Source: a virus
Direction: 5' to 3' (one strand)
IMG/VR virus record: IMGVR_UViG_3300027852_000001
Span: 104,091-168,090 of that record
Length of the DNA: 64,000 nucleotides
How positions within the stretch are numbered: position 1 is the first letter of the stretch; the number at the start of each line of letters is the position of its first letter. The position numbers and the translations under genes are program-made. Below are positions 45,481-64,000 of this stretch, piece by piece. The notes under the pieces were generated by a model that worked only from the letters and a program-made list of their open reading frames with translations, made no database searches and was not told where the DNA came from.

Positions 45481-45966
45481 TTACCATTTATAAATTTCTT
45501 CTACTGCTTTTCTTAATAATACCGCCAAAACACAGACTTCCCCATTACTAAAAGTATGCCTCATAGCTATTTGTTCAGAATCTCTCTTTACACTTAAGTA
45601 TATGTTGTATCTATCGTTATCATCTAATCCAAAATATAGAACCGCATTGCCTTTTGTATTTGAATGATACAATCCTTTGTGCTTAGACGTCTTTCTATCA
45701 AACGGCCCGACACCTCTTTGAATTCCGGTTACTACAGCCAACAACTCACCAATATCAGAGACACCTAGCTTAAATACAATCTTACCATCTTTCCATCCAA
45801 ATGTTGCGTTTCCGTTGTCGTTTTTCCCAGTTTGTTTAGCCATTTCCAGAAACACACTTTGTTTGTCTGGCCTAAAACTCCATTGAGATGCACAACCATC
45901 ACCAGATGTTCTAGCTTTATAGAAAGTAAGGTCACTTGAAAAATTATCTTTTTGGTCTCTAGTCAT
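45481..45966 (-). CDS. Whirly-like ssDNA-binding protein candidate
   Basis: 161 residues. The order of elements, KIVFKLGVSDIGELLAVVTGI, a segment GLYHSNTKGNAVLYFG, RYNIYLSVKRDSEQIAMRH and a final amphipathic helix CVLAVLLRKAVEEIYKW, recalls the Whirly/PC4-type fold (strand, strand, helix, repeated) that binds ssDNA. I judge this by pattern only. It overlaps the start of the next-upstream recombination-like gene by eight bases, which fits a recombination pair. Located at the 3' end of the minus-strand operon. Confidence 0.45.
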   Translation of the reverse strand: MTRDQKDNFSSDLTFYKARTSGDGCASQWSFRPDKQSVFLEMAKQTGKNDNGNATFGWKDGKIVFKLGVSDIGELLAVVTGIQRGVGPFDRKTSKHKGLYHSNTKGNAVLYFGLDDNDRYNIYLSVKRDSEQIAMRHTFSNGEVCVLAVLLRKAVEEIYKW

Positions 45967-46906
45967 TGTCTTTTCCTTTGTTGTCCATCATTTGTCTCAT
46001 TTCTCTTACTACGTCAGTTGCTTGCTGATATGTTAAATTTGTCAAATCAACATCACCTGTTTTTTCACTAAGTTTACATTCTATTCCAAGCTTCTCTAGT
46101 ATTGATGGAATATGAAAATCTTCTCTTCCAGCTATTAATCTTAATGCAGCTATTTGTCCAGCATGAACACTTCCTCCCGGCTGTATCTCCGTACTAAGGG
46201 ACAGCGTTTTGTTTATTTCTTCAGCAGCTACAACCCTTTTCAGCCCCAAAGCATTCCTAAACATTCTACCCTTAGCTCTAGTATCAGCCATAGAAACTAG
46301 ATATGTAGAAAAATCATCCATGCAGTTATCCTGATTCGCGTCAGCCAATGCTTCAAATCTTTTCGTGCCCATTGGTGTAAGGAAAATACCCCATGCTTTA
46401 CAACACGCTCTATACCTATTATCTTCACATGGGGTAGCAATTAAATCACACCCTTCCTCCATTAGTTCTCCGACAAGCAAACCAGCTACTCTTCTAAGAC
46501 CTTCAACTCTTGGGTTTTTACCATCAACTTCATCATCCATAAATAAACCAAGAACGTATTGAGTCCACTCTGGATCACTAGGACTTGGAGGTGTTGGCTC
46601 ATCGTCGGTCCACCGAGTATCGCTCGGTGAAGTTACTACACCAGAACATAACGGTAATGTATCTGTAAATTCTGACTTTGAAGTAAAAGGAGTTGTTATT
46701 TCAATTCCTACATCATCTTCGTCGTCCTGATTTTCCGTGATAACAAAACCAACAGTTTTCTGACCCTTTCTGTGTTCTCTCAATGTGTCCAATAGTTCTG
46801 GTCTCTTCATTGTATTTATTTTACTGTCTTCATACCCACACTTTATTAGTTCTTCCTTTATTTCTGTTTTACTCATTCTGGTTGGCGACTTTAGTTCATT
46901 ATCCAT
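45959..46906 (-). CDS. Putative ssDNA-annealing or recombination-associated protein
   Basis: 315 residues. N-terminal 50 residues look like a SAP-type helix pair (SKTEIKEELIKCGYEDSKIN, then LLDTLREHRKGQK). Residues about 150-230 contain a FSTYLVSMADTRAKGRMFRNALGL motif like the 'AETRAKGRALRxALG' signature of phage Rad52/Erf-related ssDNA-annealing proteins. The C-terminal 80 residues (HAGQIAALRLIAGREDFHIP... then LTNLTYQQATDVVREMRQMM) resemble a helical tail often attached to these. Placement next to a ssDNA-binding candidate supports a recombination role. Confidence 0.5.
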   Translation of the reverse strand: MDNELKSPTRMSKTEIKEELIKCGYEDSKINTMKRPELLDTLREHRKGQKTVGFVITENQDDEDDVGIEITTPFTSKSEFTDTLPLCSGVVTSPSDTRWTDDEPTPPSPSDPEWTQYVLGLFMDDEVDGKNPRVEGLRRVAGLLVGELMEEGCDLIATPCEDNRYRACCKAWGIFLTPMGTKRFEALADANQDNCMDDFSTYLVSMADTRAKGRMFRNALGLKRVVAAEEINKTLSLSTEIQPGGSVHAGQIAALRLIAGREDFHIPSILEKLGIECKLSEKTGDVDLTNLTYQQATDVVREMRQMMDNKGKDND

Positions 46907-47486
46907 TTTTTGTCTCCGTTATGGCAATCCGTACTAGTTTATCGACATTACAGTCTGGAATTATTGTATCACAGACTTTTATTCCGAATTCCCTCTCAAT
47001 TACTTCCTTGTGAGATTCATGTCTTGTAATAACCTCAACTCTATTATCGCAGAAAGTAGAATTAATGTTTCTTAATGCTAAAATTTTATTATCAATAAAA
47101 TCAAGATCAAAAACATAATGATATATTTTGGACGCATTTGTAATCAGCGCTTCTGTAGTTGTCCCAATACTTGTAGTTATCAAAGGATAGTTGCCCCAAC
47201 TAATAAGGCGAGAAGTATTAAAAACTGGACATGTAGGCACTACACATGGTGGAATCATGTGTTGCGTAAATATTGCTATATCTATTCCAGCATATTTTCT
47301 ACATAATTCATTAATAGAATGTATCCCCAAATATGTTAATTGCGATATAGCTAGATGCTCAAATACAAACCCAACAGTGAAAATATCATCGGATAGACTC
47401 AATCCAATTTCACCAACCTCTTCGGCTGCTTTTCTCTGTCTTGCACAAGCCATCTTATGTTGTTTATTTTTATTCTTTTTTGCCAT
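46899..47486 (-). CDS. Protein of unknown function, glycosylation-cluster associated
   Basis: 195 residues from ATG at 47486 (ACAGGA upstream), chosen over a 14-codon longer start that lies inside the upstream gene. It begins with a basic stretch (AKKNKNKQHKMACARQRK). The middle PLITTSIGTTTEALITNASKI then YHYVFDLDFID recalls a small Rossmann-like domain that I have seen beside phage glycosyltransferases. No catalytic motif. It is coupled to the GT2 gene. Function unknown. Confidence 0.55.
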   Translation of the reverse strand: MAKKNKNKQHKMACARQRKAAEEVGEIGLSLSDDIFTVGFVFEHLAISQLTYLGIHSINELCRKYAGIDIAIFTQHMIPPCVVPTCPVFNTSRLISWGNYPLITTSIGTTTEALITNASKIYHYVFDLDFIDNKILALRNINSTFCDNRVEVITRHESHKEVIEREFGIKVCDTIIPDCNVDKLVRIAITETKNG

Positions 47487-48243
47487 CAGTATTTTCCTGT
47501 CTAGTATTAATAAACTCTCTAACGGCATTTTCTTCTTGTTGTATCAATTTTTTTACAGATTCATCTAGTGGTTTAACTATATTATGGTGTAGTGGTGCCG
47601 GAATATGATAGACTAAACCAACCTCTGATATTCTAACACACATATCGTAATCATATCTGACCATTAGTTGTTCGTTAAAACCTCCACCCATTTTTTGCAA
47701 AATTTGTGGTCTAATAAGAAAGTTTGTATCAAACAAAAATCCATCATTCAATCTATTGGCACTATATGATTTTCTGAAAATTCTTTCAACTCGCCCGTCT
47801 TCGTGATGATTGTCACAGTCACTAACAACACACGCCACGGACTTTACACTGTTAAAAGTATATACTGATTGAATTATCTTATCTGGAGCATACCAGCTAG
47901 TTGGATCTAAAAATCCAAAAAGAGTGACACCTTGCCATTTTCTTTGCATTGCTATATTCAGTGTATGTCCTATGGTTGTTTTTCTTTTTCTGAAAATTTT
48001 TATAGGAACTCCATTATATTTCCCATCAAATTCGGGGGGAAGTCCAGTTTGTCCGTCTATTGTAACACTATCCGCACCAAGTATCGAACATAATTTTTCA
48101 TATGTCCCGTCAGTACTATCATTGTCTCCCACAATTATTTGATCAGCAATTCTAAAACCCTTAGATACTGATTCAATTGCACGAACAATTGTATTCACAT
48201 TATTTTCTGTTGCTATTATAATAGTAATGTTTTCTTTGTCCAT
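47470..48243 (-). CDS. Glycosyltransferase family 2 (GT-A)
   Basis: 257 residues. The N-terminus (ITIIIATENNVNTIVRAIESV then QIIVGDNDSTDGTYE) is the classic nucleotide-sugar-binding part of GT2 enzymes. FGFLDPTSWYAPDKI corresponds to the DxD area, with an altered Asp-Pro-Thr. The C-terminal region has an aromatic, helical acceptor domain. It would transfer a sugar from UDP- or GDP-sugar to an acceptor in the cytosol. Its start overlaps the end of the 48245 gene closely. Confidence 0.78.
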   Translation of the reverse strand: MDKENITIIIATENNVNTIVRAIESVSKGFRIADQIIVGDNDSTDGTYEKLCSILGADSVTIDGQTGLPPEFDGKYNGVPIKIFRKRKTTIGHTLNIAMQRKWQGVTLFGFLDPTSWYAPDKIIQSVYTFNSVKSVACVVSDCDNHHEDGRVERIFRKSYSANRLNDGFLFDTNFLIRPQILQKMGGGFNEQLMVRYDYDMCVRISEVGLVYHIPAPLHHNIVKPLDESVKKLIQQEENAVREFINTRQENTDGKKE

Positions 48244-48244
48244 T

Positions 48245-49003
48245 TTATACTAATCCACAATCATCCATAAACCAAACTAATCCCATTCCTGACTCTTCTT
48301 CTTCTATAGCTAGTTGCTCTGAAAAAGATTTATTTTCAGATATCATTACCATATTTTTATATGGTTTGGTTAAAAATAATCCATTGTTAAGAGTTTTGTC
48401 AATGACAGCAGTTCCATTAATCATTAAGGGAAAAGACCAACTAATTACTCTTGTTGGCATCATTCTTATCTGTGATGCTAATTTATCAGTGTTAAATAAC
48501 ACTTTTCCAGCATTTATTGTCATAAAAAACGGAGATTTAACTGTTTTCAATAATCTTCGCATTGTTGTTTCCGTACTGTCTAACGGCTCTTTTTCAACAC
48601 TACTATCCACAGTAGTTGGTATTTTATGGTTTTGAGTTTGTAAATAATTTAGTGCTATATTTTGTCTTTCCCCGAAACCAGTAACATCTACAATAGTGAC
48701 TTTTCTTGCATATTTAAGATACCAATCTGAATCTAATGTGGCTGTAAGAGATTCATGCGAATGTACCTGTTCATCGAAAAAAACAAAAAGATCAAATTTA
48801 AGGACATTTTCTTCTATTACTTTGTTAAGTAATTTTTGTACTCCCGATACCGGTTGTTTTTTACTCCATTCAATACTTCTACATTGACGACAATATCCAG
48901 GAGCTACTGTTCTATTTCCATTAGAAACACAAAGTTGGTTTAGTGAACATTTACTCTCATTGCACAAAAAGAAACAACACCCATTACATCCAGTTGTTAG
49001 CAT
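48245..49003 (-). CDS. Cys-rich possible glycosyltransferase-like protein
   Basis: 252 residues with GGAGG well placed upstream of ATG 49003. N-terminal Cys cluster (TGCNGCCFFLCNESKCSL, then YCRQCRSI) can hold zinc or iron-sulphur. The rest is alpha/beta (KFDLFVFFDEQVHSHESL, SPFFMTINAGKVLFN) and could be a degenerate GT-A domain without an evident DxD. It overlaps the methyltransferase by seven bases. Family uncertain; placement suggests a role in glycan modification. Confidence 0.5.
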   Translation of the reverse strand: MLTTGCNGCCFFLCNESKCSLNQLCVSNGNRTVAPGYCRQCRSIEWSKKQPVSGVQKLLNKVIEENVLKFDLFVFFDEQVHSHESLTATLDSDWYLKYARKVTIVDVTGFGERQNIALNYLQTQNHKIPTTVDSSVEKEPLDSTETTMRRLLKTVKSPFFMTINAGKVLFNTDKLASQIRMMPTRVISWSFPLMINGTAVIDKTLNNGLFLTKPYKNMVMISENKSFSEQLAIEEEESGMGLVWFMDDCGLV

Positions 49004-49470
49004 TTTTCAGCCTCCAGGTAAAAAGCTATACCCTCATATCTTTTAACTACAATATTTAGGCCAGATTTTTCTAATAAAGAGATAACTGTTAAGACATCTA
49101 TCATAGACTTTCTGTTATCAATTTTTGAGTCAAATCCAAAAGTAATTTGGGTATATTGTTTTAGGTCTAGTTGTCCTTGCATAAAAGCTTTGGCTACAGA
49201 ATAACAGTCTGGGAATAACATTCTAATTACTCCACCAACCTTAAGCTTATTCACCCAATTAACAATTGTATCATTTATAAAATTATGATCAACATATTCA
49301 ACACAATCTAATGCTAAAATTTCTTCCACAGAACCGTCTTCTGCCATCCAATCCAAAGATGTTATATCACCCTGCCTGTATACAGAAGGATCTGAACAAT
49401 TAGAAGGTAATCTATCTATGTTAACATATCCGTTTCTTACGTCTTGACCACATCCTAGGTTTAACTTCAT
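48997..49470 (-). CDS. Class I SAM-dependent methyltransferase
   Basis: 157 residues from ATG 49470, with GGGAG six bases upstream; an in-frame ATG 21 bases earlier lies in the neighbouring gene. MKLNLGCGQDVRNGYVNID is motif I (GxGxD-type SAM pocket). EEILALDCVEYVDH is a later strand with an acidic residue, and VGGVIRMLFPDC closes the core. Shorter than average but complete. Probably methylates a sugar of the glycan; nucleic-acid methylation is less likely. Confidence 0.75.
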   Translation of the reverse strand: MKLNLGCGQDVRNGYVNIDRLPSNCSDPSVYRQGDITSLDWMAEDGSVEEILALDCVEYVDHNFINDTIVNWVNKLKVGGVIRMLFPDCYSVAKAFMQGQLDLKQYTQITFGFDSKIDNRKSMIDVLTVISLLEKSGLNIVVKRYEGIAFYLEAEKC

Positions 49471-49472
49471 TT

Positions 49473-50486
49473 TTATCTCCCAATTGGGCATTGTATTGTT
49501 TTGAAAAATGCTTCATTCCACTCGTCAAGAAAACGTTGTTGTCCAAAATGCTCTATAACTGTCTGTCTTCCTGCTGCTCCTATTTCTTTAGCCATGTCTT
49601 TATTATTAATTAATTCTACCAATTTTTCTCTCATTGTTTCTGGATTATTTGTTATGAAACCGTTTACTCCATTTTGAATAAACTCTGGCATCATTGTTGT
49701 AGCTGTTGTAACAATCGGACATCCGACAGACATGGCCTCTAACAAAGAAAATGGACAAGAAGACCATAGTGTTGTGTTTAAAAACACAGAGGCATTCCTA
49801 TATAGGTCTAGTAAATGATCTGAGTTATCTGCCATAACTGACAACCCTGGAGTCTCTCCCCATGGGTTGGTTTCTAAGTCTTTAGTTACTTCTTTCCATA
49901 TTGAAAATCCACAAATTCTATCTCTTTTGATATAATCCCATACTGCCGTCATCACCTTACCATCTCCACCAACCCACCCATTCCAATAATTTGTATCCAT
50001 ACCATGTTTAATTATTGAAATATTTGGATCATCTGGTTCATGAAACCATGCACCTGTAGAAAAATCAGAAACAAAAATATTATGACTACATCGCTGATGT
50101 CCCACTTGTTCTATAATATTGTCGTCCCAATCTGGCCAAGGAAGAGTGTGTTCCATTTGAAGTAACGGACAATTTAATTGTGCAGCAATTTGTGATAATA
50201 TTGGATAGTGGTCTACTCTATTCTGAGTAAGAACTAAATCAAAACACATTTCTGGTTTTATTTGTTTTTCGATACTATCGCCAGACAAGAAAAAGAAGTT
50301 GGGAGGTGTTGGTCTTTCTTTTACATCCCACGGATGGAATCTTGGGTGAGACAATACGAAAAAATTGTGTCCTGTTTTTGCTAGTGTAGCACTATAAGCT
50401 TCATGATTATTAGCGTATAGAATATTTAATGGACGACTTTTATCTTTGTTTATCGACCTAAGTACCGATGACATTGGTGATGACAT
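49473..50486 (-). CDS. Glycosyltransferase family 4/1 (GT-B)
   Basis: 337 residues from ATG 50486 (GGAG six bases upstream); the longer frame would overlap the upstream gene by 47 bases. NILYANNHEAYSATLAKTGHNFF forms the N-terminal Rossmann domain. The C-terminal domain carries VFLNTTLWSSCPFSLLEAMSVGCPIVT, the 'E-x7-E'-type and Gly-rich donor-binding region of GT4. It would transfer a sugar using a nucleotide-sugar donor. It is two bases before the methyltransferase start. Confidence 0.8.
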   Translation of the reverse strand: MSSPMSSVLRSINKDKSRPLNILYANNHEAYSATLAKTGHNFFVLSHPRFHPWDVKERPTPPNFFFLSGDSIEKQIKPEMCFDLVLTQNRVDHYPILSQIAAQLNCPLLQMEHTLPWPDWDDNIIEQVGHQRCSHNIFVSDFSTGAWFHEPDDPNISIIKHGMDTNYWNGWVGGDGKVMTAVWDYIKRDRICGFSIWKEVTKDLETNPWGETPGLSVMADNSDHLLDLYRNASVFLNTTLWSSCPFSLLEAMSVGCPIVTTATTMMPEFIQNGVNGFITNNPETMREKLVELINNKDMAKEIGAAGRQTVIEHFGQQRFLDEWNEAFFKTIQCPIGR

Positions 50487-50487
50487 T

Positions 50488-51675
50488 TTATTCTCCAGAA
50501 TCCTCAAGTAATTGTTTTGCAATTTTTCCAACATTTGTATAGCTAAATTTCTTAGCTCTGTTGTGGGCAGCTTTACCTTTTTCCGCCAAAAGTCCAGACC
50601 CCCACTCTCCGTATGCTGATTTCATACAAGATCCTAGATGTTCAATATTTGGTTCAAACCACAATTCATTTCCAGTATATAAGTCTGGGAAACTATCTGT
50701 CTGACCAAAACAAGACGTTAAGCATCCATCAATAAGCCATCCACAATCTATATCTCCTGAATTGGTGAATTTTTGTGTATCTGGGTTCCAATATGAACTA
50801 GCCATTTCTAGAACTAGTTCTGGATATGATCCCCAATTGCTTAGAATTACTGGATTACTAAATCCCATAGCGTCATGTGCTGGTATTCCCCAAGCTTCTC
50901 CGTGACTTGCAGAAACAAATACGTCGCCAGACAAATGCAATCTATCTATTTCTATGTCTGTTAGAAAATCTGAAATACATATCACTGGTGGATAATAATC
51001 ATGTTCTATGTATAGGTGCATTGATTTTTTTATGTCTATACACATTTTCTTTATAAGTTCTGTTACGTCTGCCGGTGATTGATTTGGTGAACTTGTTTTT
51101 ATTACTAACGCTACATTATCTCTGGACGTGAATGTCCCATAAAATGCTCTGATTATTGCTATGATATTTTTTCTACGACTTAATTCACCTATTGTATAAA
51201 ATACGCACTTATCTTTTAGTTTTTGAATGTTGAGCGGTTGTTTGTCTTTGTTAAACCTCAATATATCTCCAGCACACGGCAAAATCTTTATGGGTACTTG
51301 GACATTGCTTTGTTTTGCTGCAGCAACATTTTGAAGTGACGGAACCCAAATTTCATCCATCATGTTACAACATTGTGGCCAGTTTGATCTATCGAAGTGA
51401 GTGGTTTCCCAATCAAACAATCCTATATTTTTAATACCACTTTTAAATTCAAACATATGCGGTAAAATATGTTGGATTACGACATCTACTCCGTCAGTTT
51501 GTTTATCTTCTAAATGTCTAACCCTATTAGATAATGCTTCATTCGTATTATTGGACAACCTAATTGACCTAGCAACTACATCTAACCCAACGGAGTCCAT
51601 TGCTAACATATTATTTACTGCTTGGTTAGCGTATCCAGTAGAATCTCTGTAAACAGATAAATAGGCTATTTTCAT
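50488..51675 (-). CDS. Glycosyltransferase family 4 (GT-B)
   Basis: 395 residues. MKIAYLSVYRDSTGYANQAVNNM is the N-terminal GT4 Rossmann strand and loop; CVFYTIGELSRRKNIIAIIRAF is the hallmark second-domain start ('G-x-x-x-R-K-N'). FVSASHGEAWGIPAHDAMGFSNPVI is the donor-binding helix with Glu/Gly. All GT4 features are intact. It is adjacent to two other GT4 enzymes in the minus operon, so sequential sugar additions are likely. Confidence 0.85.
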   Translation of the reverse strand: MKIAYLSVYRDSTGYANQAVNNMLAMDSVGLDVVARSIRLSNNTNEALSNRVRHLEDKQTDGVDVVIQHILPHMFEFKSGIKNIGLFDWETTHFDRSNWPQCCNMMDEIWVPSLQNVAAAKQSNVQVPIKILPCAGDILRFNKDKQPLNIQKLKDKCVFYTIGELSRRKNIIAIIRAFYGTFTSRDNVALVIKTSSPNQSPADVTELIKKMCIDIKKSMHLYIEHDYYPPVICISDFLTDIEIDRLHLSGDVFVSASHGEAWGIPAHDAMGFSNPVILSNWGSYPELVLEMASSYWNPDTQKFTNSGDIDCGWLIDGCLTSCFGQTDSFPDLYTGNELWFEPNIEHLGSCMKSAYGEWGSGLLAEKGKAAHNRAKKFSYTNVGKIAKQLLEDSGE

Positions 51676-51676
51676 A

Positions 51677-53389
51677 TTATATCACCGTTACTTTAACTTC
51701 ATTTGTTTCGTTATTTGACATAGCAGAACATCTCTTGATTTCAAATTCATTTGCTTGATCAACAAGCTGGTTAAAATGTTCTACCATCATTTTTCTATTG
51801 AATGGGATTCTCCTGTCTCCAGATGTTCTTGATCCACTATTTAGTGCCTTAAGCCATTCTCCAGAAAACTGTGTATTAAGCATGTCTGGTCTACCCCAGA
51901 ATGTCCCTATAACCCAATTAACAAATTCAACATTGTTCATATTGTCTTCTGGTGGTTTTGGGCTAGGCTTTCTTATTGTTGGTACGGTATTAAACCACGT
52001 CTTTTTGTTGTCATATATATTGGTTTCTCTGAGAACCTCACCCCAAATAGCAGCAGTTCTTTCCCAACCCCTTCTCCTCATTTTCTCGTCTTGCTTATAT
52101 GTGTCTACTAACTCTTCCATATATGCTCTGGTTTGTTTATTTTTCTCATTTCGTGTTTCTTCTGATAATTTCAAGAACTTATCTAATTTGTTAACAAAAT
52201 CCTTATTGCTTGGTAGCGCACGCTTTTGTTCTGTCTCTATTATTGCTTCCCAGAAAAATCTCTCGACATCTATAGGTATCGATCCCGGACATTTTAAGTG
52301 ATCTTGCATAGCAGAATAATCCACGGCGGCTACTGGGACACCACAAGCTTGTGCTTCTGCGCATGGCATACCGAATCCTTCACAGATAGAATATTGTACG
52401 TAGAGATCAAATGATTTCATTATGTCTGCTAGGACATTTCTTGGACAAGAATGGTTTGCATTTGGTGGATGTGCAGCCAATACTCCACACTTACGACAAA
52501 CCATCATTTCTTCTGAAAAGAATGCCGGATAAGCTGTTTGGCAATTGCTACACAAATATGTCATAATAACTTTATTGCCAACATTAAATTCTTTTATTGC
52601 TTTCCCAATATCATATCCAACATCTGGGTAGCTAGTATGTAAATACAAGAATGTTCTTTTGGTTAGATCTGTGTGTCCTTTAGAATTTGACCTATTTATC
52701 CACATACTGAATGCTTCTATCAAGTCGTAGTATAACTTTCTTTTTTGGTTTCTCATTACTGTGCCAACAATCAAGGAATTTGGATCAATTCCCAATCTTC
52801 TTTTGTGGTCTTTTTTGTCTATTGGAGGAGTAAATACCTCAAGGTCTGCTCCAGGAGAAGCTACGGTAACAAGTTCTGTTCCTTTTCTGCTGGTTTTCTC
52901 TAATAAATTCATTCCATAATCAGAATATGTCAATATACGGTCACACTGACGATATGAATCCAACCATAATTCCCTCTGTGGTTCACCATCTATTGTTGGC
53001 ATCCATATAAATTTAAATTTATTTCTTAGTGGTGATCTTAAAATAAATTCATCCATCCACCAGTCACGAATTCCACAAACTATATCTGGTTTAAAATGAA
53101 GGCAAGTACTTTCGAATCTCCATTCACCAAATTGATTTGTATTTTTTTGACCAGAATATATTCTCATAGCATTTTGGTCTGATCTTGCTGGTGCTGCTGG
53201 ATAAAATTTCCAAGGCACTTGTCCGCATCTTGGGTCATCATCGTGGGCATAACTTCCCAACTCAGCTATTTCGAATTCTCCCGTATCGTACAATCTTTTT
53301 ATTACTTCATTCCAGTACGTACTGAATCCAGTGGCTAAGAAACTAGCTTCACCAACAAATAATATTCGACGTTTTGGTTTATTTTCCAT
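51677..53389 (-). CDS. Glycosyltransferase family 4 with inserted zinc ribbon
   Basis: 570 residues from ATG 53389; the in-frame GTG at 53395 leaves too little space after GGAAG. RILFVGEASFLATGFSTYWNEV is the GT4 N-terminus, LIVGTVMRNQKRKLYYDLIEAF begins the second domain, and SICEGFGMPCAEAQACGVPVAA is the donor site with EAQACG. Between them a zinc-ribbon insert (CSNC at 280-283, CRKC at 298-301) interrupts the second Rossmann domain, an unusual addition. The last 130 residues are a helical extension. Could recognise an acceptor protein. Confidence 0.82.
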   Translation of the reverse strand: MENKPKRRILFVGEASFLATGFSTYWNEVIKRLYDTGEFEIAELGSYAHDDDPRCGQVPWKFYPAAPARSDQNAMRIYSGQKNTNQFGEWRFESTCLHFKPDIVCGIRDWWMDEFILRSPLRNKFKFIWMPTIDGEPQRELWLDSYRQCDRILTYSDYGMNLLEKTSRKGTELVTVASPGADLEVFTPPIDKKDHKRRLGIDPNSLIVGTVMRNQKRKLYYDLIEAFSMWINRSNSKGHTDLTKRTFLYLHTSYPDVGYDIGKAIKEFNVGNKVIMTYLCSNCQTAYPAFFSEEMMVCRKCGVLAAHPPNANHSCPRNVLADIMKSFDLYVQYSICEGFGMPCAEAQACGVPVAAVDYSAMQDHLKCPGSIPIDVERFFWEAIIETEQKRALPSNKDFVNKLDKFLKLSEETRNEKNKQTRAYMEELVDTYKQDEKMRRRGWERTAAIWGEVLRETNIYDNKKTWFNTVPTIRKPSPKPPEDNMNNVEFVNWVIGTFWGRPDMLNTQFSGEWLKALNSGSRTSGDRRIPFNRKMMVEHFNQLVDQANEFEIKRCSAMSNNETNEVKVTVI

Positions 53390-53966: not shown

Positions 53967-53975
53967 ACTATAATC

Positions 53976-54404
53976 TTAAAACGGGATATTGTCATCACCA
54001 CCACCATCAGCAACTTCTGCCTCTACTGGAGGACTATCGTCCTTTTTCTTGCTTTTTGTTGTGGTATTTTTTGACTTACTTTTTTCACACTTTTGAAAAT
54101 CCTTAGCTTCAAGTGTATAAGCTACTTTTTTGTTTCCGTCGTCATCTGTCCACGTATCTTGCTTTAGATACCCAGAGACGTACAATAAATCCCCCTTTCC
54201 AATCAATTCCGCCATCCTTACAGCTTTGTTTCCCCAAATTTGACACCTCAAAAATGTTGTTTGTTGGCTGTAACTATCTTCATTCTTTCTCTTAAAGCTC
54301 TTGTTAAAAGCTAGATTAACTGTACATAGATCAAACTCTCCAGCTTTTTTTATTTCTGGATCAGCCGTAGCAACTCCAATTCCATTTACGCTTAATTCAG
54401 CCAT
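53976..54404 (-). CDS. ssb: Single-stranded DNA-binding protein
   Basis: 142 residues. OB-fold with VNGIGVATADPEIKKAG, CTVNLAFNKSFKRKNED, TTFLRCQIWGNKAVRMAELI, GDLLYVSGYLKQDTWTDDDGN and AYTLEAKDFQKCE, all diagnostic of bacterial-type SSB. The disordered Lys/Pro/Glu-rich linker ends in DDNIPF, the acidic tip that recruits replication and repair proteins. AAAGG precedes the ATG and a TATAAT lies about 40 bases upstream. It coats ssDNA in phage replication. Confidence 0.93.
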   Translation of the reverse strand: MAELSVNGIGVATADPEIKKAGEFDLCTVNLAFNKSFKRKNEDSYSQQTTFLRCQIWGNKAVRMAELIGKGDLLYVSGYLKQDTWTDDDGNKKVAYTLEAKDFQKCEKSKSKNTTTKSKKKDDSPPVEAEVADGGGDDNIPF

Positions 54405-56826: not shown

Positions 56827-56866
56827 ATCTTATTATACCTAGAAATAAATCTTATATTTCACAAAA

Positions 56867-57688
56867 TTAGAAATTTCTATAAATATCGGCGATTTGTTGT
56901 AACATACGTCCGATTACAGGAGACATGTCCGATAACTGTTTGAACAACTGTGTTTCAGTTGCATTAATTATTTCTGTTTTATGGTATTTATAATTTCTTG
57001 CACCTTGTAACCCACGAATACCCCCATGTTCAGCAAGACGAATGTGTGTGCCATGATGATTTGAGGTAGTTAATGACGGCCAATATGTTTCTGATAAATT
57101 ATTCGGTGGTTCCCCAAGGCTTGATTCAACAATCATTTTCAGTAACAGTTGTTCATTGAATCCTTGCTCTGGTAGCTTTATTTCGCCATTTTTTAACATT
57201 TGTCTGTATTTTTTCATAACAGGGAGCATTGCGGCAAACCACTCTCTGGGTTTAATAACGTGTATTCCACATACACGACGTGGTTGTGTTGGGCGTATGA
57301 AATTACTATAAGGTATTTGTAGTTGATTGCAGTGTGCTAAATGTTGATCCATATATGATGGTAGTTCTGAATAAATAGCCATATCAACATCACCTATGGA
57401 CATACAATCATATTGATCGAATGCTGTCTCATATACTAACCATCTCAAACACTTTATCGTAGTAGCATCTGTCGTATCATATTCTTCGAAAGAGTTTTCT
57501 CTTACCTCAAAATTTCCATTCAATAAATCCAGCATAGGACCAATTTTATTACTTATTGTTCCATCTAATAGTACTAATTTATGTGCATGTGGATATGCTA
57601 TGTTCAAAAAATACAAAAACCAAGGAACATACTTCTGGTAAGGTTGATTAGCTACCGTCATAAAACACATTTTACTATTATCAGACAT
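56867..57688 (-). CDS. Glycosyltransferase with DxD motif (GT-A)
   Basis: 273 residues. SIGDVDMAIYS (DVD at 100-102) is a GT-A DxD metal and nucleotide-sugar site. HKLVLLDGTI and YDCMSIGDVDM are neighbouring strands. The C-terminal half includes His/Trp-rich TSNHHGTHIRLAEHGG, likely acceptor or donor contacts. Family resembles GT8/GT6-like enzymes but is not certain. Its start overlaps the stop of the GT-B gene before it by one base. Confidence 0.7.
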   Translation of the reverse strand: MSDNSKMCFMTVANQPYQKYVPWFLYFLNIAYPHAHKLVLLDGTISNKIGPMLDLLNGNFEVRENSFEEYDTTDATTIKCLRWLVYETAFDQYDCMSIGDVDMAIYSELPSYMDQHLAHCNQLQIPYSNFIRPTQPRRVCGIHVIKPREWFAAMLPVMKKYRQMLKNGEIKLPEQGFNEQLLLKMIVESSLGEPPNNLSETYWPSLTTSNHHGTHIRLAEHGGIRGLQGARNYKYHKTEIINATETQLFKQLSDMSPVIGRMLQQIADIYRNF

Positions 57689-58638
57689 TATATCGACACT
57701 CCGACTTCTTTAAGTTGTTTCGTAATATCATTCCACATTGCTTCTGTCATACCACCATCTGGAAGTAGTTGATAATATTCCTCATACAAGTTGTATCCAT
57801 TTTTTGCAATTCTAAGTGTTGCTTGTTCGTCTAAAATAGCTCTTTCACATATTTCCATAAGATTAGATAGATCTGGCAATACATCTAAATAATGTTCATT
57901 TGGAATCATACGATTCAACCATTTAAATTTATCTAAACAACAACTTACAATACAAGACTGCATTCCCATACTTTCAAAATGACGATACGTCAAAACACTA
58001 TTCCCTGGCATACATAATGATAAAAGTGAATTATTAATTGAATTAAGATAAAAATATCTTGGTCGATGACCAACCTCTACCCCAGAAATACATCTATCAG
58101 CACCGGGTTCTTGTCCCACTATACCTCCATGAAACCATGGTTGACTTTTCAAAATATTACAAGCTTTAATGCGTAAGTTTTTTTCTGTATCCAAGTCACC
58201 AGTGGGGAGTCCATAAAAAGATACAATCGGTTTTTTATTGCTGGATGGTTTTTTTAATCCACCAATTAAAAATGGTTGCATAATAATCTGTTTACCAATT
58301 ATACGTCTATCGTAGTCAGAATCATCGTGTGTCCACTGAATTTTAGCAAACGCTGCAGCCTTGTCTATTACTTCGTCAGGCAAACCACGTCCTTCCATCC
58401 GTGTGTTGAATGAACTCCAGTCTCCCAACGACATTAGTATTATCTGCCCGCGAAATGCTATAAGTTCTTCAATTGTCTGATCGCTTATCTTATGTGGATG
58501 CATACAATCTACCAACCAAATATCTGCGTCTGAAATATTTTGATTAGTAAATAGATGTCCGTGCCTAGCTAGTGTTGCAGCTATTGGCCCCATTCTTAGT
58601 GGTGTCGATATGTGTACTATAGTCGCTTTTATTTTCAT
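57688..58638 (-). CDS. Exostosin/GT-B-like glycosyltransferase
   Basis: 316 residues. LCMPGNSVLTYRHFESMGMQSCIVSC resembles the 'LCPPGxGLDTxRxWEAL' donor-binding segment of exostosin (GT47) and related GT-B enzymes. A Rossmann-like start (KIKATIVHISTPLRMG) and helical C-terminus follow. It would add a sugar with retention or inversion depending on subfamily, which I cannot decide. Tightly packed with neighbours on both sides. Confidence 0.65.
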   Translation of the reverse strand: MKIKATIVHISTPLRMGPIAATLARHGHLFTNQNISDADIWLVDCMHPHKISDQTIEELIAFRGQIILMSLGDWSSFNTRMEGRGLPDEVIDKAAAFAKIQWTHDDSDYDRRIIGKQIIMQPFLIGGLKKPSSNKKPIVSFYGLPTGDLDTEKNLRIKACNILKSQPWFHGGIVGQEPGADRCISGVEVGHRPRYFYLNSINNSLLSLCMPGNSVLTYRHFESMGMQSCIVSCCLDKFKWLNRMIPNEHYLDVLPDLSNLMEICERAILDEQATLRIAKNGYNLYEEYYQLLPDGGMTEAMWNDITKQLKEVGVSI

Positions 58639-59384
58639 TAGTTGCTCATTGCTTTTCTGAATAATTGTCCTAATAATGTTGGACTATCTAGTAATTCTTG
58701 TTTACCCATTGTTAAAAATGGACTATTACATTGTTTAAACATTTCGTGAAAAAGCATACATCCAAATGAATCTGGAATACAACATTTATCAATAGATTCT
58801 TTCCCTGCAAAACGAAATGCTTCCCAAGATGGAATTGGCATCAGGAAACGGTAGTCTAAGTGGTGGTATCTTTTTCTTCTAATTGCTTGACGAATTGTTC
58901 CTGGCCCCAATGATCCCCATTGAAAGATATGACCTGGAGGATGCATACTCAAGGCGTGCTCAATTATTGAAACTGCTTTTGTTATAACTGGTCCGTTTTT
59001 CAAAGAAAGTAAAAATCCACTCTCCGGTTGTCCGTAGTTAAGAGTAGGTGATGCAGTTGCTACCAAATCTATACCATCTTTAAGTAAGTCTAACATAGGT
59101 TTAAGACTTTGAAACAAAATTAAATCACTATCTAGCCAAATTCCACCAAGTTCTTTTAGTAATGTATATCTGAGAAAATTTGATTTATTGTTAATTTGCG
59201 CAATACTAAAAAAACTTTCAGATATATCTGGTAAAAAATGTTTTACATTTGCTGTTGTAACAAGATTGATATTAAAATCTTCTCCACAATGTTTTGCTAT
59301 AGACTCCCAACAAAGTTCTATATATGGAGGTGGTGAGGTTTTACCTGGAGGATTATCCCAATATAAAAAGATATTAGGTTTCAT
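58638..59384 (-). CDS. GT32-type glycosyltransferase
   Basis: 248 residues. NKSNFLRYTLLKELGGIWLDSDL is the conserved GT32 'SDxxRyxxLxxxGGIYxDxD' region, with Asp-85 and Asp-87 as the DxD. KPNIFLYWDNPPG is the N-terminal strand. Such enzymes add mannose or galactose-type sugars to capsule or lipopolysaccharide-like chains. Strong ribosome binding site AAGGAAA before ATG 59384. Confidence 0.82.
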   Translation of the reverse strand: MKPNIFLYWDNPPGKTSPPPYIELCWESIAKHCGEDFNINLVTTANVKHFLPDISESFFSIAQINNKSNFLRYTLLKELGGIWLDSDLILFQSLKPMLDLLKDGIDLVATASPTLNYGQPESGFLLSLKNGPVITKAVSIIEHALSMHPPGHIFQWGSLGPGTIRQAIRRKRYHHLDYRFLMPIPSWEAFRFAGKESIDKCCIPDSFGCMLFHEMFKQCNSPFLTMGKQELLDSPTLLGQLFRKAMSN

Positions 59385-59399
59385 AATTTTATTTCCTTT

Positions 59400-59975
59400 T
59401 TATCGTACGACAGAAAATAGAATAGTATGTCTGCCGTCACCCATATAAGTGTGTAAGTTTGTTATTCCCATATCTTTTATACGTTTTTGTAGTTCAGCTT
59501 CTTTGTGTTTCTGTGATGGACTTTTGCGAACATCGAAATCAATAAACACATCACAAACTTTACCATATTCTCCTGTGTCTATTAGATCCAAAATCACCTC
59601 ACACTCACTACCCTCGCAATTTAGTTTCAGGAATATTTCATCATCAATGGAAATATGTTCTTTGAACCAATCGGAAGCTTTTATAAATTGACATTTTGTT
59701 ATCCGTGGTTCTGGATTACATGTTGTTTGGTAGTCAGAATGGACACTTCCACCCTGACTCCCTTCGTTGTGTAGATCCATTTCACATGTGCTAGACCACA
59801 ATCCTTGTTTTACAATAGTAACTCTGTCATTGTTTCCGAATTTACCCTCCAACGCTTTGTGGCATATTGGAGATGGTTCAAAACCTATTATATGATCAAT
59901 TTTGAATCTTGGTCTCAACAACAATTCTATTGTTTGTCCAACGTGAGCACCTACGTCTAGAAAAATACGACTCAT
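59400..59975 (-). CDS. FkbM-type methyltransferase
   Basis: 191 residues from ATG 59975 (GGAGAAA upstream); a longer start lies inside the upstream gene. FLDVGAHVGQTIELLL is the SAM-binding motif I; IIGFEPSPICHKALEG is motif II with the Glu of the ribose; EIFLKLNCEGSECEVI is the FkbM 'LKIDxEGxE' signature, here with Asn-Cys. It probably O-methylates a sugar of the glycan. Overlaps no neighbour but is only one base from the upstream gene. Confidence 0.82.
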   Translation of the reverse strand: MSRIFLDVGAHVGQTIELLLRPRFKIDHIIGFEPSPICHKALEGKFGNNDRVTIVKQGLWSSTCEMDLHNEGSQGGSVHSDYQTTCNPEPRITKCQFIKASDWFKEHISIDDEIFLKLNCEGSECEVILDLIDTGEYGKVCDVFIDFDVRKSPSQKHKEAELQKRIKDMGITNLHTYMGDGRHTILFSVVR

Positions 59976-59976
59976 A

Positions 59977-60819
59977 CTATTTTCTCCAATCATAATATAC
60001 AAAACGTGTTAGGAAGCAGTCATTGTGAATGTGAAAAGCAAATTTCAATTTTTGTAAAAGTCCGGTTACTTTTAGTTGCTTCAAAGCAAATTCATGATTA
60101 GATGGAACACCCTCTCTTAAAAATTTGCCTATATTATCATATAGATCCCCGAATTTATCCATTAATTCTGTCCCACCAAAAAACCAGTAATCTGCTAATG
60201 CAGGGTAGTGAGGTGTGTGTGGATGTCCTATATGAATGTGTTGTAAGTCTTTGTTTTCTTTCTTGTCCCATCCTTTTAGAAACCAATCTTCGTGTCTAAT
60301 TCCTTGTCCATTTGGCATTTTCATTACACACCAATTGGATGCATAGAAATTTTCAGGATCAAATTGATCAAAGTGTACATCTGTCATCCATGCAACATCG
60401 AATCGACCAATCATTACCATGTCATATTTAAATCCGTTTGCTTCTTCATATTCTCTTTTTAGTTTCATGCATTGCTGTATGCTATACCATCTGGCAATAG
60501 TTATTTGTGTTTTTGATGTAATTCCATCTGGGTAATTTTTATCAGTTTTAGCACCAGAAACATCAAATTTTGGATCTGGTTCGAATACTGCTGCTTTTGG
60601 ATTATATGCATTTATCAGGTCTTGTTTAGATTCTACGCTTGGCGTGTGGATAAATACATCAACATCATTATGCTCAAAAATATGTTTTTTGTAATGTTCT
60701 AGTCCTCTTCTCCATTCAACAGGAGTTCTCTTTCCTGTCGTGCCATTCCACATTTGTCCTCCGACTATTTTCTTCCCTTCATGAAGAGCCATTCCATTTA
60801 AGCATAGTGCAATCCTCAT
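59977..60819 (-). CDS. Glycosyltransferase-like protein (GT-A, RFD motif)
   Basis: 280 residues with AAGGGGGT before ATG 60819, the strongest initiation site of the operon. YDMVMIGRFDVAW holds an Arg-Phe-Asp (139-141) in place of DxD, as in several phage and viral GT-A families. HPHTPHYPALADYWFFGG is the acceptor-side loop. No known family is certain. Placed between FkbM and TylF methyltransferases. Confidence 0.65.
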   Translation of the reverse strand: MRIALCLNGMALHEGKKIVGGQMWNGTTGKRTPVEWRRGLEHYKKHIFEHNDVDVFIHTPSVESKQDLINAYNPKAAVFEPDPKFDVSGAKTDKNYPDGITSKTQITIARWYSIQQCMKLKREYEEANGFKYDMVMIGRFDVAWMTDVHFDQFDPENFYASNWCVMKMPNGQGIRHEDWFLKGWDKKENKDLQHIHIGHPHTPHYPALADYWFFGGTELMDKFGDLYDNIGKFLREGVPSNHEFALKQLKVTGLLQKLKFAFHIHNDCFLTRFVYYDWRK

Positions 60820-60831
60820 AAATCAACCCCC

Positions 60832-61398
60832 TTATTCGATTACTCTGATTATTTTTCGCTCTTCTCCGGAAGTCGTTTTGTCTGTAAAAGGTACTACCTC
60901 GCATTTTCTGTCAAATTCTATTACCCACTCATTATATGCTTTTTGTTCGTGATCATCATATTTTTCATCATGTTTATAAAACCACTCATCAAATACAATT
61001 ATAGTTCCTGGAACTATGTGGTCATTGAGAGACCATAACACTTCTTTTGCAGAACTATACAAATCAGAATCTATGTGTAGAAGAGCAATTGGTTCAGCTA
61101 TTTTTAAATATTCAGGTAATGTGTCTGTGAACCATCCTGGATAAAATTTTACACCTTTGACATCTGGTATCACTCCATTTGTAGAAAAATATTCCGGCGG
61201 AACAACAACAACTCCATCCTTGTCTATCCATGCTTCTGGTAAACCAACAAATGAATCAAATCCGAATATATCAAATGATTCGCCAAGCGTTTGTCTTATT
61301 GTTCGTATTGTTTCACCCCGACAAACCCCGAATTCAAGAACATGTGAGTATTTATCGTCTAACAACGTTAGTCCATGTTGTAAACTAGAGTGTATCAT
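60832..61398 (-). CDS. TylF/MycF-type O-methyltransferase
   Basis: 188 residues from ATG 61398 with AAAGG upstream; the longer frame to 61506 lies inside the sulfotransferase gene. VLEFGVCRGETIRTI is the SAM-binding motif, FDIFGFDSFVGLPE and LLHIDSDLYSS are the metal and sugar-hydroxyl Asp motifs typical of macrocin O-methyltransferases. It methylates a sugar hydroxyl using Mg2+. Together with the FkbM gene it indicates at least two methylated positions. Confidence 0.82.
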   Translation of the reverse strand: MIHSSLQHGLTLLDDKYSHVLEFGVCRGETIRTIRQTLGESFDIFGFDSFVGLPEAWIDKDGVVVVPPEYFSTNGVIPDVKGVKFYPGWFTDTLPEYLKIAEPIALLHIDSDLYSSAKEVLWSLNDHIVPGTIIVFDEWFYKHDEKYDDHEQKAYNEWVIEFDRKCEVVPFTDKTTSGEERKIIRVIE

Positions 61399-62059
61399 AC
61401 AAAAACCTTTCTCTGTGTTGTTCAAATAATATATCAAAACTTTTAAGAAATTCCATATCTTCGTTTGAGACATCAAATGGTTTATTGTCCGGAGGATGCC
61501 ATCCAACTGTTTTTTCTATTTTTATTTCCTCATCTGATTTTCTTTTCCACCCCAATAATTTTTGTATTTTAAGGAGTGGTATTTCTTGGTTTTCTTTCAT
61601 TTGTTCATATGTTATGTTTAGGTCTGAATATGCTGTCCAAAACATATTTGTTAGTAACCACAATTCAGGTGGGGTCGTTGGCTGATCTTGTATCCAACTT
61701 CTTCGTGCTTGTGGTACTAATTTGTCATCTAGAAAAATTTTACAATTACCAATAATTCTAGGCATTTTTTTATATGGTGTTCTGATAAATGTTGAAAAAT
61801 CATTTAATTTAATTCCATTTCTTTCCCTCATTCTAAAGACTGACATCAAAACTGGTTGTATTTTACGACTACAATGAATTATGTGTGCTCTAGCGAATCG
61901 TTCTCTTATGTCGGCTTCGAACTTGTGAGTACCAAACATATTCATATAATCTTTGTATGGTGTTTGAAAGTTTTCAAGAATGGTTCTTAACACCCAATGT
62001 GTTCCACTTCGAGGATGTGTTACAAGTCTTAATCTGTCTTTTTTATTTTTTTTATTCAT
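61385..62059 (-). CDS. Sulfotransferase
   Basis: 224 residues. VTHPRSGTHWVL (13-24) is the P-loop-like 5'-phosphosulfate binding motif, and HIIHCSRKIQPVLMSVFRM contains the 3'-phosphate-binding 'R-x-x-x-x-x-x-S' strand and helix. It would transfer sulfate from PAPS to a glycan hydroxyl. It overlaps the fusion gene stop by eight bases and the TylF gene by 14. Sulfated glycan synthesis in a phage is unusual. Confidence 0.78.
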   Translation of the reverse strand: MNKKNKKDRLRLVTHPRSGTHWVLRTILENFQTPYKDYMNMFGTHKFEADIRERFARAHIIHCSRKIQPVLMSVFRMRERNGIKLNDFSTFIRTPYKKMPRIIGNCKIFLDDKLVPQARRSWIQDQPTTPPELWLLTNMFWTAYSDLNITYEQMKENQEIPLLKIQKLLGWKRKSDEEIKIEKTVGWHPPDNKPFDVSNEDMEFLKSFDILFEQHRERFLYDTL

Positions 62060-63620
62060 TTAAGTATTCCGTCACATTAAATAACATTATTTTTCCTAAA
62101 TGAAATAACATTTCCGCATATGGTTGATGGTGTAGTGCTGCTATATTTAGATAAATTAGTGCTGTCAGGGTTATAACTTTATGGTAATCATAATGATTTC
62201 TTACAATATATCTTTTCAACAATACTTCACAATCAATTAATATATGTCTTCGTAATAAATCAAAGTTGACAGTTGTTCCATTGATATCTATGCTGTATAA
62301 ATTTTTATTGATTATTCCGTGAGAGACAATAAGTCCGTGCCATAATTTTGCAAAATCATAATAAATATCTCCGTAATCACTAAGGTCTCCAAAATTTTGT
62401 CTCCAATCTAGTAAACAAAAATCATTACCAGTATCTATAATGTTTTCAAAATGTAAATCTCCGTGAAATCTTACTGGTATACCGGTTGACATCCATACCC
62501 AATCTATTTTGTCTAATAAGTCTCCTATTGGAGGAACATCTACTCCGTTGATACATTGAGCAGTATCTGTGTATCCAAATCTATCAAAATATTCTTTTAC
62601 TCTTGCAAATGTTTTGTCTCTATAAAAACGTAGATATGCTTCTTGAATATCGGATGATAACATTTTGCGACTATTCCATAGCGGCTCTATCCAAGAAATA
62701 AAATCTTTGAATCTAGATACAGTAATTGTGTTAGAAAGAACTCTACCACCAATTTTTCTGTAACAATACATATTTGGTGTGTAGTTTTCGATTGCCGGTA
62801 CATATCCTTCTAATGATTTTGCTCTTTCAACTCTTTGTGAAATAAAATTTTTGTCAGTAGAAAATTTAATAACACGACTATTACAAAACCAAATATGTTC
62901 TTGTTCTTTTGGAAGAATGTTTGGGTCATTTTCTCCAGCAAAAGCTTTGTTTGCACTAGCAAGTGCTTCTACAGTTCCAGTATCAAACCACGTAAATTGA
63001 CGTCCTTTAACAATATTTTCTCCAACCATCTCAGCTAAAGCAAATGATTCTCCTTGATTTGTAGTTCCTTTGCTAATAGCTTCATCCATTTTGTCCCAGA
63101 ACGTTTTATAATCATGAATCCCACAAATTCCAATATAAGCTTTTGCTTCTGTGTGAACTCCTTTTTCTCCCAAATCTTTAACCACAGTATCGTCCCATGA
63201 ATCTGCAACAACAGAACGATAATCATGACCAGCGCGAATATCTGCGTATCCAATCCAATTATGATCTGGTGTTGGGATATCTTCAGTTACAATTGCATCA
63301 TTAGTAAAAAAGATGAATGGACATTGCAACATATTCTTGTAATCACATAAGTCAGATGTTAGTCCATTTCTTCTCGCCCAAATAAATGTGAATTTTCTTT
63401 CAGGATATGCCAAGGTAAGAAACTCTTTAACCAACTCTCCCTTATGTCCCAAATCTATAATAAGTTCTATTTCTGGTGAAAATTTTTCTACTATATAAGA
63501 TATAATTGGACGATTAGCTACTGGAACCAATGTTTTGTTTACATGATCACAGTGATTACCCAAACGCGAACCAATTCCAGCTGTTGGAATTAATACTTTA
63601 TATTTTATATTATCTGCCAT
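62052..63620 (-). CDS. Sugar nucleotidyltransferase-phosphotransferase fusion (LicC/LicA-like)
   Basis: 522 residues from ATG 63620 (GAAG six bases upstream; an ATG at 63626 is also possible). Residues about 5-230 form a nucleotidyltransferase (LIPTAGIGSRLG, NKTLVPVANRPIISYI, FIFFTNDAIV), which would make an activated sugar or CDP-choline-like donor. Residues about 260-520 are an aminoglycoside-phosphotransferase or choline-kinase-like domain with VRFHGDLHFENII (catalytic HGDxHxxN) and CLLDWRQNFGD (metal-binding Asp). A two-step kinase plus nucleotidyl transferase in one chain suits donor synthesis for the cluster. The substrate is unknown. Confidence 0.78.
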   Translation of the reverse strand: MADNIKYKVLIPTAGIGSRLGNHCDHVNKTLVPVANRPIISYIVEKFSPEIELIIDLGHKGELVKEFLTLAYPERKFTFIWARRNGLTSDLCDYKNMLQCPFIFFTNDAIVTEDIPTPDHNWIGYADIRAGHDYRSVVADSWDDTVVKDLGEKGVHTEAKAYIGICGIHDYKTFWDKMDEAISKGTTNQGESFALAEMVGENIVKGRQFTWFDTGTVEALASANKAFAGENDPNILPKEQEHIWFCNSRVIKFSTDKNFISQRVERAKSLEGYVPAIENYTPNMYCYRKIGGRVLSNTITVSRFKDFISWIEPLWNSRKMLSSDIQEAYLRFYRDKTFARVKEYFDRFGYTDTAQCINGVDVPPIGDLLDKIDWVWMSTGIPVRFHGDLHFENIIDTGNDFCLLDWRQNFGDLSDYGDIYYDFAKLWHGLIVSHGIINKNLYSIDINGTTVNFDLLRRHILIDCEVLLKRYIVRNHYDYHKVITLTALIYLNIAALHHQPYAEMLFHLGKIMLFNVTEYLNE

Positions 63621-63933
63621 AATCATCTTCAACTCGTATAACGTCATCTAATTCTGGAGTAGATGACTCTAAATACGTAGCATCTTCTTTCCCTTCCATT
63701 CTATGGATTTCTCCTGGTAAAATTGTACAAAAATTTCCAGGCTTCATCATTATTATTTTACCATCCTTGTGTAATAATAATATACCACTTAGTACATATA
63801 TTGTTTCTGTTTTTTGTTCATGATGTTGTAGACTACATCGTTTTCCTTTTTTCATATGTAATTTTTTAACTACATATTTATCATTAACTTCAAGAATTTC
63901 TTCCTTACCCCATGGCTTATCTACTGTTTTCAT
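63610..63933 (-). CDS. Cupin, mannose-6-phosphate isomerase-type
   Basis: 107 residues. WGKEEILEVNDKYVVKKLHMKKG, RCSLQHHEQKTETIYVLSGI and HKDGKIIMMKPGNFCTILPGEIHRME match the C-terminal cupin of mannose-6-phosphate isomerase or guanylyltransferase (ManC-type). The metal site is H-x-H-E with a later His. It would interconvert or bind a phosphorylated sugar for the pathway. It overlaps the fusion gene start by 11 bases and is overlapped by ATGA with the gene upstream. Confidence 0.8.
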   Translation of the reverse strand: MKTVDKPWGKEEILEVNDKYVVKKLHMKKGKRCSLQHHEQKTETIYVLSGILLLHKDGKIIMMKPGNFCTILPGEIHRMEGKEDATYLESSTPELDDVIRVEDDYGR

Positions 63934-64000
63934 AACATACCCCCAAAAGCTAATGAATAATGATCTATTACTTTCATGATTTCACATATAATGCTTTCCC
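63930..64000 (-). CDS. Partial gene running off the window (C-terminus)
   Basis: The minus strand is open from the window edge to TGA at 63932-63930, ending ...KVIDHYSLAFGGML. It overlaps the cupin start codon by ATGA, the spacing used throughout this operon. Only 23 codons are visible, too few to identify the family. Confidence 0.45.
   Translation of the reverse strand, partial: ESIICEIMKVIDHYSLAFGGML

Follow-up and report, generated by a model that had tools for sequence, protein, structure and literature searches.

A split DNA polymerase III alpha and constant glycosyltransferase genes in the replication operon of an uncultured phage lineage

The gene block and its split polymerase

The window analysed here is a stretch of 64,000 nucleotides, bases 104091-168090 of a 168,090-base virus record (IMG/VR IMGVR_UViG_3300027852_000001; G000 among the records compared below). 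Its plus strand carries structural genes, encoding a tape-measure-like protein and proteins with the motif LFIxG, and its minus strand holds a block of 21 same-strand genes, many of them overlapping, at 45481-63933. A sequence-only reading had recognised this minus-strand block and its gene overlaps and had called it a self-contained glycan operon; its observation was partly confirmed and its interpretation partly supported. The glycan genes are not self-contained, as they sit inside and behind replication genes, and a dehydratase gene lies elsewhere, adjoining the terminase gene. That reading had overlooked the intein-bearing C half of DNA polymerase III alpha, a single-strand DNA binding protein (SSB), and weakly sigma-like and RAD52-like proteins. 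A widespread lineage of uncultured tailed phages has this block as its replication operon; in the window's record the block crosses the record ends and reaches the N half of the polymerase. All coordinates of its genes given below refer to the minus strand.

The C half (polC, 54478-56826) comprises the fingers, HhH and OB-like regions (Pfam DNA_pol3_finger, 160 bits; HHH_6, 54). The N half (polN), with the PHP and palm domains, is encoded on the same strand at the opposite end of the record (G000:C1:1412-3790, equal to L087:1412-3790). In three related records (G006, G007, and G021), polN is followed contiguously by genes for a HAD protein, an aldolase and a cupin; aldolase, cupin and a nucleotidyltransferase-kinase fusion gene stand in a row in all three, the fusion gene directly after the cupin in G007 and G021. 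The contiguous order from polN to cupin implies that the two ends of the window's record adjoin on the map, and the slot between the polymerase halves of the window phage is then about 8.6 kb long and holds a glycan cassette. Judged from solved homologs, polC starts near residue 584 of E. coli alpha, and polN reaches the palm motif KFDFLG and ends about 33 residues past it, so that little or nothing of the polymerase has been lost. No intein halves could be read in the sequence at the break: the C half begins directly in polymerase sequence, which, together with the position of the polN end, leaves no room for them.

Two sets of loci were compared. For the first, IMG/VR was searched with the GT4a glycosyltransferase described below (from the window and from L006); 80 of 85 relatives were kept, and four loci obtained with polC brought the set to 84, some of them duplicates or near-duplicates. 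In this set polC is present in 84/84 loci, and the polymerase lies in separate open reading frames (ORFs) in all 77 loci with a visible polN. Because these loci had been chosen mostly by GT4a, a second search used the polC alignment alone as the query; among the best 80 of 582 relatives, many of whose contigs overlap with the first set, the polymerase is split in every one. At the level of sequence, the replicative polymerase is thus encoded as two polypeptides, and the gap between them is a slot for cargo.

Other observations concern the halves themselves. At the nine positions in polN that we take to be the PHP metal ligands, 28 of 114 sequences keep all nine residues, 85 keep 0-2, and one keeps seven; the ligands are intact in the window clade and degenerate in many phages that carry an exonuclease in the slot, and some phages have both. 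In a few loci a half is itself found in two ORFs (polC of L080, polN of L201 and L203), maybe through inserts or frameshifts. The polC of the window contains a mini-intein of 173 aa (55750-56268; Pfam Intein_splicing, 23.9 bits, sub-threshold) with the junctions FNK^C...TCN^SHAVSYG, which the homologs in L003 and L005 lack. Other polymerase inteins lie at different sites (RK^..SIGKKK, PG^C) in polC of L012, in L049 and in L069.

Glycosyltransferase genes behind the polymerase

Downstream of polC come the genes for SSB (53976-54404; Pfam SSB, 62.9 bits, PHROG 44) and for a weakly sigma-like protein (53379-53966; Sigma70_r2, 19 bits, below the cut-off), followed by three GT4 glycosyltransferase genes: GT4a (51677-53395, 572 aa) and GT4b (50488-51675), which are core genes, and GT4c (49473-50534), which is near-core. 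In the set selected by polC alone, GT4a follows polC in all 72 loci that have at least 800 bases downstream (the other eight have at most 418), GT4b is present in 55/55 loci with at least 4.5 kb, and GT4c in 42/45 loci with at least 8 kb. The position of GT4a and GT4b is kept in sequences down to about 35% identity. In addition, the distances of GT4a and polC are correlated (Mantel r 0.659, p 0.001, 59 loci), and in one close pair the nonsynonymous rate (dN) is 0.071 for both genes; most gene pairs are saturated at synonymous sites. Glycosyltransferases of phages are usually seen as optional, and here two of them always stand behind the polymerase where the locus is long enough. This constancy suggests that glycosylation may belong to the core functions of a phage, and it seems to be a core trait in this large group of uncultured phages.

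The structure model of GT4a has a GT-B fold (pLDDT, predicted local distance difference test, 89.6) and matches BshA, the chlorovirus protein B736L and MshA with Z scores of about 31 (for BshA, Z 31.6, root-mean-square deviation 3.7, 361 residues aligned). The two glutamates of its EX7E motif, E339 and E347, are invariant in 23 sequences. By modelled fold and motif, GT4a is a retaining GT-B (GT4) glycosyltransferase. Its first match in the PDB by Foldseek is B736L of chlorovirus NY-2A, described as a GDP-mannose-binding viral enzyme whose own acceptor is unsettled. Relatives of GT4a in GTDB assemblies are found on seven contigs, in metagenome-assembled genomes of six groups (the closest in Phycisphaerales, 60%), a scatter that allows no host assignment.

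Large in-frame inserts interrupt GT4a in 9 of the 84 loci of the first set (L005, L007, L008, L011, L012, L080, L082, L083, and L084), which include two near-identical pairs and hence about seven distinct cases. They occupy three sites, among them those before C107 and before C338, and the latter touches the EX7E motif. At the junctions, read in seven loci, the inserts have the sequence features of inteins (a first residue Cys or Ser, Hint motifs, and a terminal (H)N or GN ahead of Cys/Ser, all in frame at a conserved site); LAGLIDADG_3 is matched above its cut-off in L007, and Hint/intein models are matched below theirs in L005 and L007. Similarly, the GDP-mannose dehydratase has one insert in G006 and two in G001 (L266, L267), at FNHE^S and YQA^STSELFG. 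The inserts of both enzymes appear to be large inteins with homing-endonuclease-like motifs, for which splicing is predicted. Inteins persist in conserved, needed proteins, and those of GT4a and of the dehydratase therefore point to an important role for both.

Beyond GT4c, the operon continues with a probable class I methyltransferase (48997-49491), which has homologs in 18/84 loci, a protein without family assignment that is conserved in the window clade (u252, 48245-49003), a GT2 glycosyltransferase (47470-48243; Pfam 26.9 against a cut-off of 23.3), and a further protein without family assignment (u209, 46899-47528). The 315-aa protein at 45959-46906 is weakly RAD52-like by alignment and model; it may be a protein that anneals single strands, and its gene is not among the recognised glycan genes; human RAD52 tops its Foldseek ranks with an E value of only 0.03, and as this structural match is below significance, a RAD52 identity was not adopted. 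A protein without family assignment (45481-45966) ends the operon.

Contents of the slot

In the window, the cassette between the polymerase halves opens next to polC with u273 (56867-57688), which is glycosyltransferase-like by eye and common to G001, G006, G007, and G021, and u316 (57688-58638), which the window shares only with the genomes of cassette version B defined below. They are followed by a Caps_synth/DXD sugar-binding glycosyltransferase (58638-59384; Pfam 38.2 against 24.5), an FkbM methyltransferase (59400-60002; 25.8 against 22.7), u280 (59977-60819; DUF7796-like, sub-threshold; 75-81% identity in G006, G007, and G021), a TylF-type O-methyltransferase (60832-61506; 51.6 against 23), whose start, judged from homologs, is probably the ATG at 61398, and a probable sulfotransferase (61385-62059). 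A fusion of a sugar nucleotidyltransferase-like domain with an APH-fold kinase, presumed to make donors (62052-63647), and a mannose-6-phosphate-isomerase-type cupin (63610-63933) come last before the record end, over which the cassette carries on with the aldolase-like and HAD genes.

The sequence-only reading had counted at least seven glycosyltransferases in the block. Five pass their Pfam cut-offs, namely the GT2 enzyme, the three GT4-type enzymes and Caps_synth/DXD, and the count of seven was not reached. By hhalign, u316 matches the donor half of GT4c weakly (E 1e-3, probability 22%), and u273, u280, u252, and u209 gave no match to the glycosyltransferase profiles built for this analysis and were set aside as candidates. 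As for the three methyltransferases proposed, the FkbM and TylF enzymes hold, and the gene at 48997 has only a weak PHROG methyltransferase match (E 0.0017). The sulfotransferase remains probable, with a score just under the Pfam cut-off (21.6 against 22.0 for Sulfotransfer_1, a model that one gene of cassette version D passes). The donor-making fusion is present, with its kinase domain above the cut-off (26.4 against 23.2 bits) and its nucleotidyltransferase-like domain below it (15.7 against 21.2); the LicC/LicA identity given to it is not specifically supported, because the first domain matches NCBIfam models of the rmlA/galU/MurU kind, with scores well under the cut-offs. The cupin was identified correctly (51.1 against 23.6). 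The methylated, sulfated oligosaccharide foreseen from these genes is plausible as a phage-encoded product, its sulfation being probable, and the GDP-mannose 4,6-dehydratase of the record offers a donor route.

In most loci the slot is short. It was read in 63 of the 77 loci, and in 61 of these it spans 600-2,144 bases and holds mostly one exonuclease-like ORF, confirmed by profile as RNase_T in L029; some loci have an FkbM methyltransferase, an endonuclease-VII-like gene or other single genes as extras, and L009 has macro and UDG genes. By profile, RNase_T (a DnaQ-like exonuclease) is present in all 13 distant records (G008-G020); it gave no match in G000, G001, G002, G005, G006, G007, or G021, and in G003 and G004 it is present outside the slot.

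In the window clade, the slot is filled with glycan genes over some 5 kb or more, and at least four versions of this content are distinguished. Version A is found in the window, in G006 and G021, and, without the sulfotransferase and FkbM genes, in G007; version B in G002 and G003; and version C in G001. Version D (G005) has sulfotransferases, DegT, GDP-mannose dehydratase and several transferases, and version B includes a PfkB kinase and a sub-threshold heptosyltransferase-like gene. In a tree of 14 core genes and nine taxa (support 77-100), G000 lies outside G002, followed by G003 and then by G001 with G006/G007/G021, an order that puts version A at both ends and version B in between. The G007 cupin shares 78% identity with that of the window and 57% with that of the sister G021; the polC sequences of G007 and G021 are 89% identical. 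With constant flanks, at least four contents at one site and discordance with the core tree, the slot is best read as a site of allelic exchange of mosaic cassettes, comparable to a capsule locus.

Side observations were made in these records. In the G003 slot, cassette B includes a 544-aa protein that is radical-SAM-like by eye (L258, ORF at 8915, reverse complement). L088 encodes a BrxL homolog (2880-4331; PF13337, 354 bits) and, at 16666-19851, a cluster of proteins that by eye are ThiF/E1-like, JAB-like and small ubiquitin/MoaD-like.

Acceptor of the glycan and comparison with known systems

The GDP-mannose 4,6-dehydratase of the window's record (386 bits) is encoded with a glycosyltransferase just before TerL (L091:14309-16704, equal to G000:C1:94.3-96.7k), in the same order as in G002, which is a late-type place. 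Its family (GMD/SDR, PF16363) is found in 21 of 22 records, some of the matches being other members of the superfamily. No membrane segment was detected in the 27 operon proteins, the only proteins of the record scanned (19-residue hydropathy window, at least 1.6). The initiating polyprenyl phosphoglycosyltransferase PF02397 was found in 0/22 records, with a control matched in 9/14, and PF00953 was not searched. The thymidylate-synthase-family hydroxymethylase PF00303 was likewise found in 0/22 records, which may be incomplete (control matched in 9/14 genomes), and ThyX in 12/22. PF12851 (Tet_JBP) was found in 0/22, while no control matched either.

The lack of membrane segments, of PF02397 and of PF00303, together with the presence of ThyX, favours a soluble pathway that decorates a conserved virion protein, in analogy to the chloroviruses; this is the reading we prefer, although we would put it somewhat short of an even chance. 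GDP-6-deoxyhexose and other nucleoside-diphosphate sugars would be made by the TerL-side dehydratase, the cassette isomerase and the kinase/nucleotidyltransferase, and the constant GT4 enzymes would assemble a core glycan in the cytosol. This glycan would be built on a phage product that is conserved, most probably a protein of the virion, either instead of the LFIxG fibres or in addition to them. The transferases, methyltransferases and sulfotransferase of the cassette would then add a strain-specific outer decoration, and a swap of cassettes would change the glycan type of the virion. A more specific version, which we hold to be possible but doubtful, is that the locus determines a virion serotype: the permanently broken polymerase would act as a docking slot, cassettes would be swapped by recombination in the polymerase halves, and the GT4 enzymes, whose conservation suffices for inteins to reside at their active sites, would build an essential core glycan that the cassettes decorate. 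With a split polymerase as its cassette slot, a virus would maintain a variable surface trait by a novel route, and replication genes would be tied to decoration in a manner open to testing.

Several points weigh against decoration of a virion protein. We infer the acceptor only, and assembly on host lipid-linked precursors may occur. GT4c is absent in 3/45 loci, the likeness of GT4a to B736L is at the level of the fold (13-15% identity), and the comparison of cassettes rests on nine related records, with G003 and G004 near-duplicates. The GT4 genes also lie with replication genes and not with structural genes, a position that agrees at least equally well with DNA or with an early target in the host.

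Accordingly, two other targets have to be weighed. The GT4 enzymes might act like T4 glucosyltransferases and add sugar to the DNA of the phage as it is replicated, with the cassette varying the sugar against restriction. DNA glycosylation by phage enzymes is established (it is named in PMC12619734), and the constant place of several glycosyltransferases directly behind the polymerase and SSB would suit it. However, the hydroxymethylase was not found in the records, where ThyX occurs instead, and no T4-type glucosyltransferase family is among the Pfam matches of the GT4 genes; the absence of T4 DNA glucosyltransferases from the 50 listed structural matches of GT4a carries no evidential weight. 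To our knowledge, sugars on DNA do not usually carry sulfate or methyl groups of the FkbM/TylF kind, and we consider this explanation unlikely. The enzymes might also remodel the host surface glycan and so block superinfection, as has been proposed for cyanophage glycan clusters. An operon shared with replication genes is probably expressed early, the variable content between related phages is the argument used for cyanophages (PMC7824862, section 22), and the PfkB kinase and heptosyltransferase-like gene of cassette B would agree. On the other hand, the operon encodes no detected membrane protein, PF02397 was not found, and glycosyltransferases as constant as the replicative polymerase throughout the lineage would be unexpected for an optional exclusion trait, so that this role, too, seems improbable.

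The sequence-only reading had placed the glycan on the linkers of LFIxG fibres. Arrays of the motif are present in 7/7 records of the window clade and in 0/12 distant records, all of which keep GT4a and show 0-1 stray motif within the 35-40 kb that were read on either side of and across the tape measure (the count leaves out G001 and G009, where 20 kb was read at an arbitrary place, and G004). LFIxG proteins are thereby disfavoured as the general acceptor, not as one acceptor within the window clade. Large accessory cassettes do occur together with the arrays; the co-occurrence is limited to one clade and counts as one event. Nor are the linkers Ser/Thr-rich as had been claimed: their content of 0.22 is below that of the N-terminal part of the same protein (0.275) and ordinary for structural proteins. 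LFIxG proteins in phages that lack the operon, which that reading had named as a refutation, were not seen in 50,697 phage records: the only match to the 18-copy LFIxG protein lies N-terminally, away from the array, and none was obtained for the second large LFIxG protein. In a side observation, residues 23-365 of the protein at 5382-8663 of the window resemble Pas28 of Actinoplanes phage phiAsp2 (26%), and its LFIxG part matched no phage record. When viral contigs were searched with patterns for the LFIxG protein, nothing was retrieved; since another query finds relatives, this reflects patterns that are poor for so variable a protein and not its absence. A 1684-aa protein considered as a fibre is tape-measure-like by eye and without LFIxG. 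A glycan on these linkers is, on the distant records and the linker composition, very unlikely.

Phage glycan clusters and the glycosylation of virions are already known. In the literature covered, which takes in few subscription papers and little of bioRxiv, we found no account of these phages, of a polymerase III alpha that is split throughout a phage lineage, of inteins in glycosyltransferases or other glycan genes of phages, of a cassette slot in a split polymerase, or of a fixed order of polymerase and GT4 genes; the moraphages (PMC12619734) are another lineage. According to the same source, phage glycosyltransferases of mycobacteriophages are thought to act on capsid and tail proteins (Freeman 2023, per PMC12619734); a glycan was observed there, whereas the present case consists of genes only, with other enzymes at another locus. 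The glycan clusters of cyanophages and jumbo phages, as described in section 22 of PMC7824862, also contain epimerases, a cupin isomerase, a PfkB kinase and several glycosyltransferases and are polymorphic between relatives. They are called sporadic there, unlike GT4a and GT4b, which are universal in the loci tested, and unlike the variable part between the polymerase halves.

The capsid glycosylation of chloroviruses (PBCV-1 and NY-2A) likewise uses virus-encoded glycosyltransferases, which are predicted to be soluble here, and B736L is the closest solved fold. Chloroviruses encode GDP-mannose dehydratase, and so does the window lineage. Their glycan has a conserved core and virus-specific decorations (PMC9614988). 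In contrast, the phages described here are unrelated in virus and host, are known from genes alone, and carry these genes in a replication operon around a split polymerase. Bacterial capsule and O-antigen loci have constant flanks and a variable centre, with donor synthesis, transferases and decorating enzymes. The slot of the window clade follows the same plan with the same enzyme classes; it differs in being borne by a phage, in lacking a recognised flippase or glycan polymerase, and in having the halves of one essential gene as its flanks. More generally, fractured phage genes, broken in two with intervening genes, were reportedly described by Dassa in 2009, and the polymerase gp43 is split in T4-like phages. 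Here, too, genes intervene between the halves, an endonuclease-VII-like gene in at least one gap. Unlike the split-intein DnaE of the cyanobacterial type, the polymerase has no intein halves at its break, and unlike fractured genes and the split gp43, the break is a constant feature of all members tested and accommodates exchangeable cargo.

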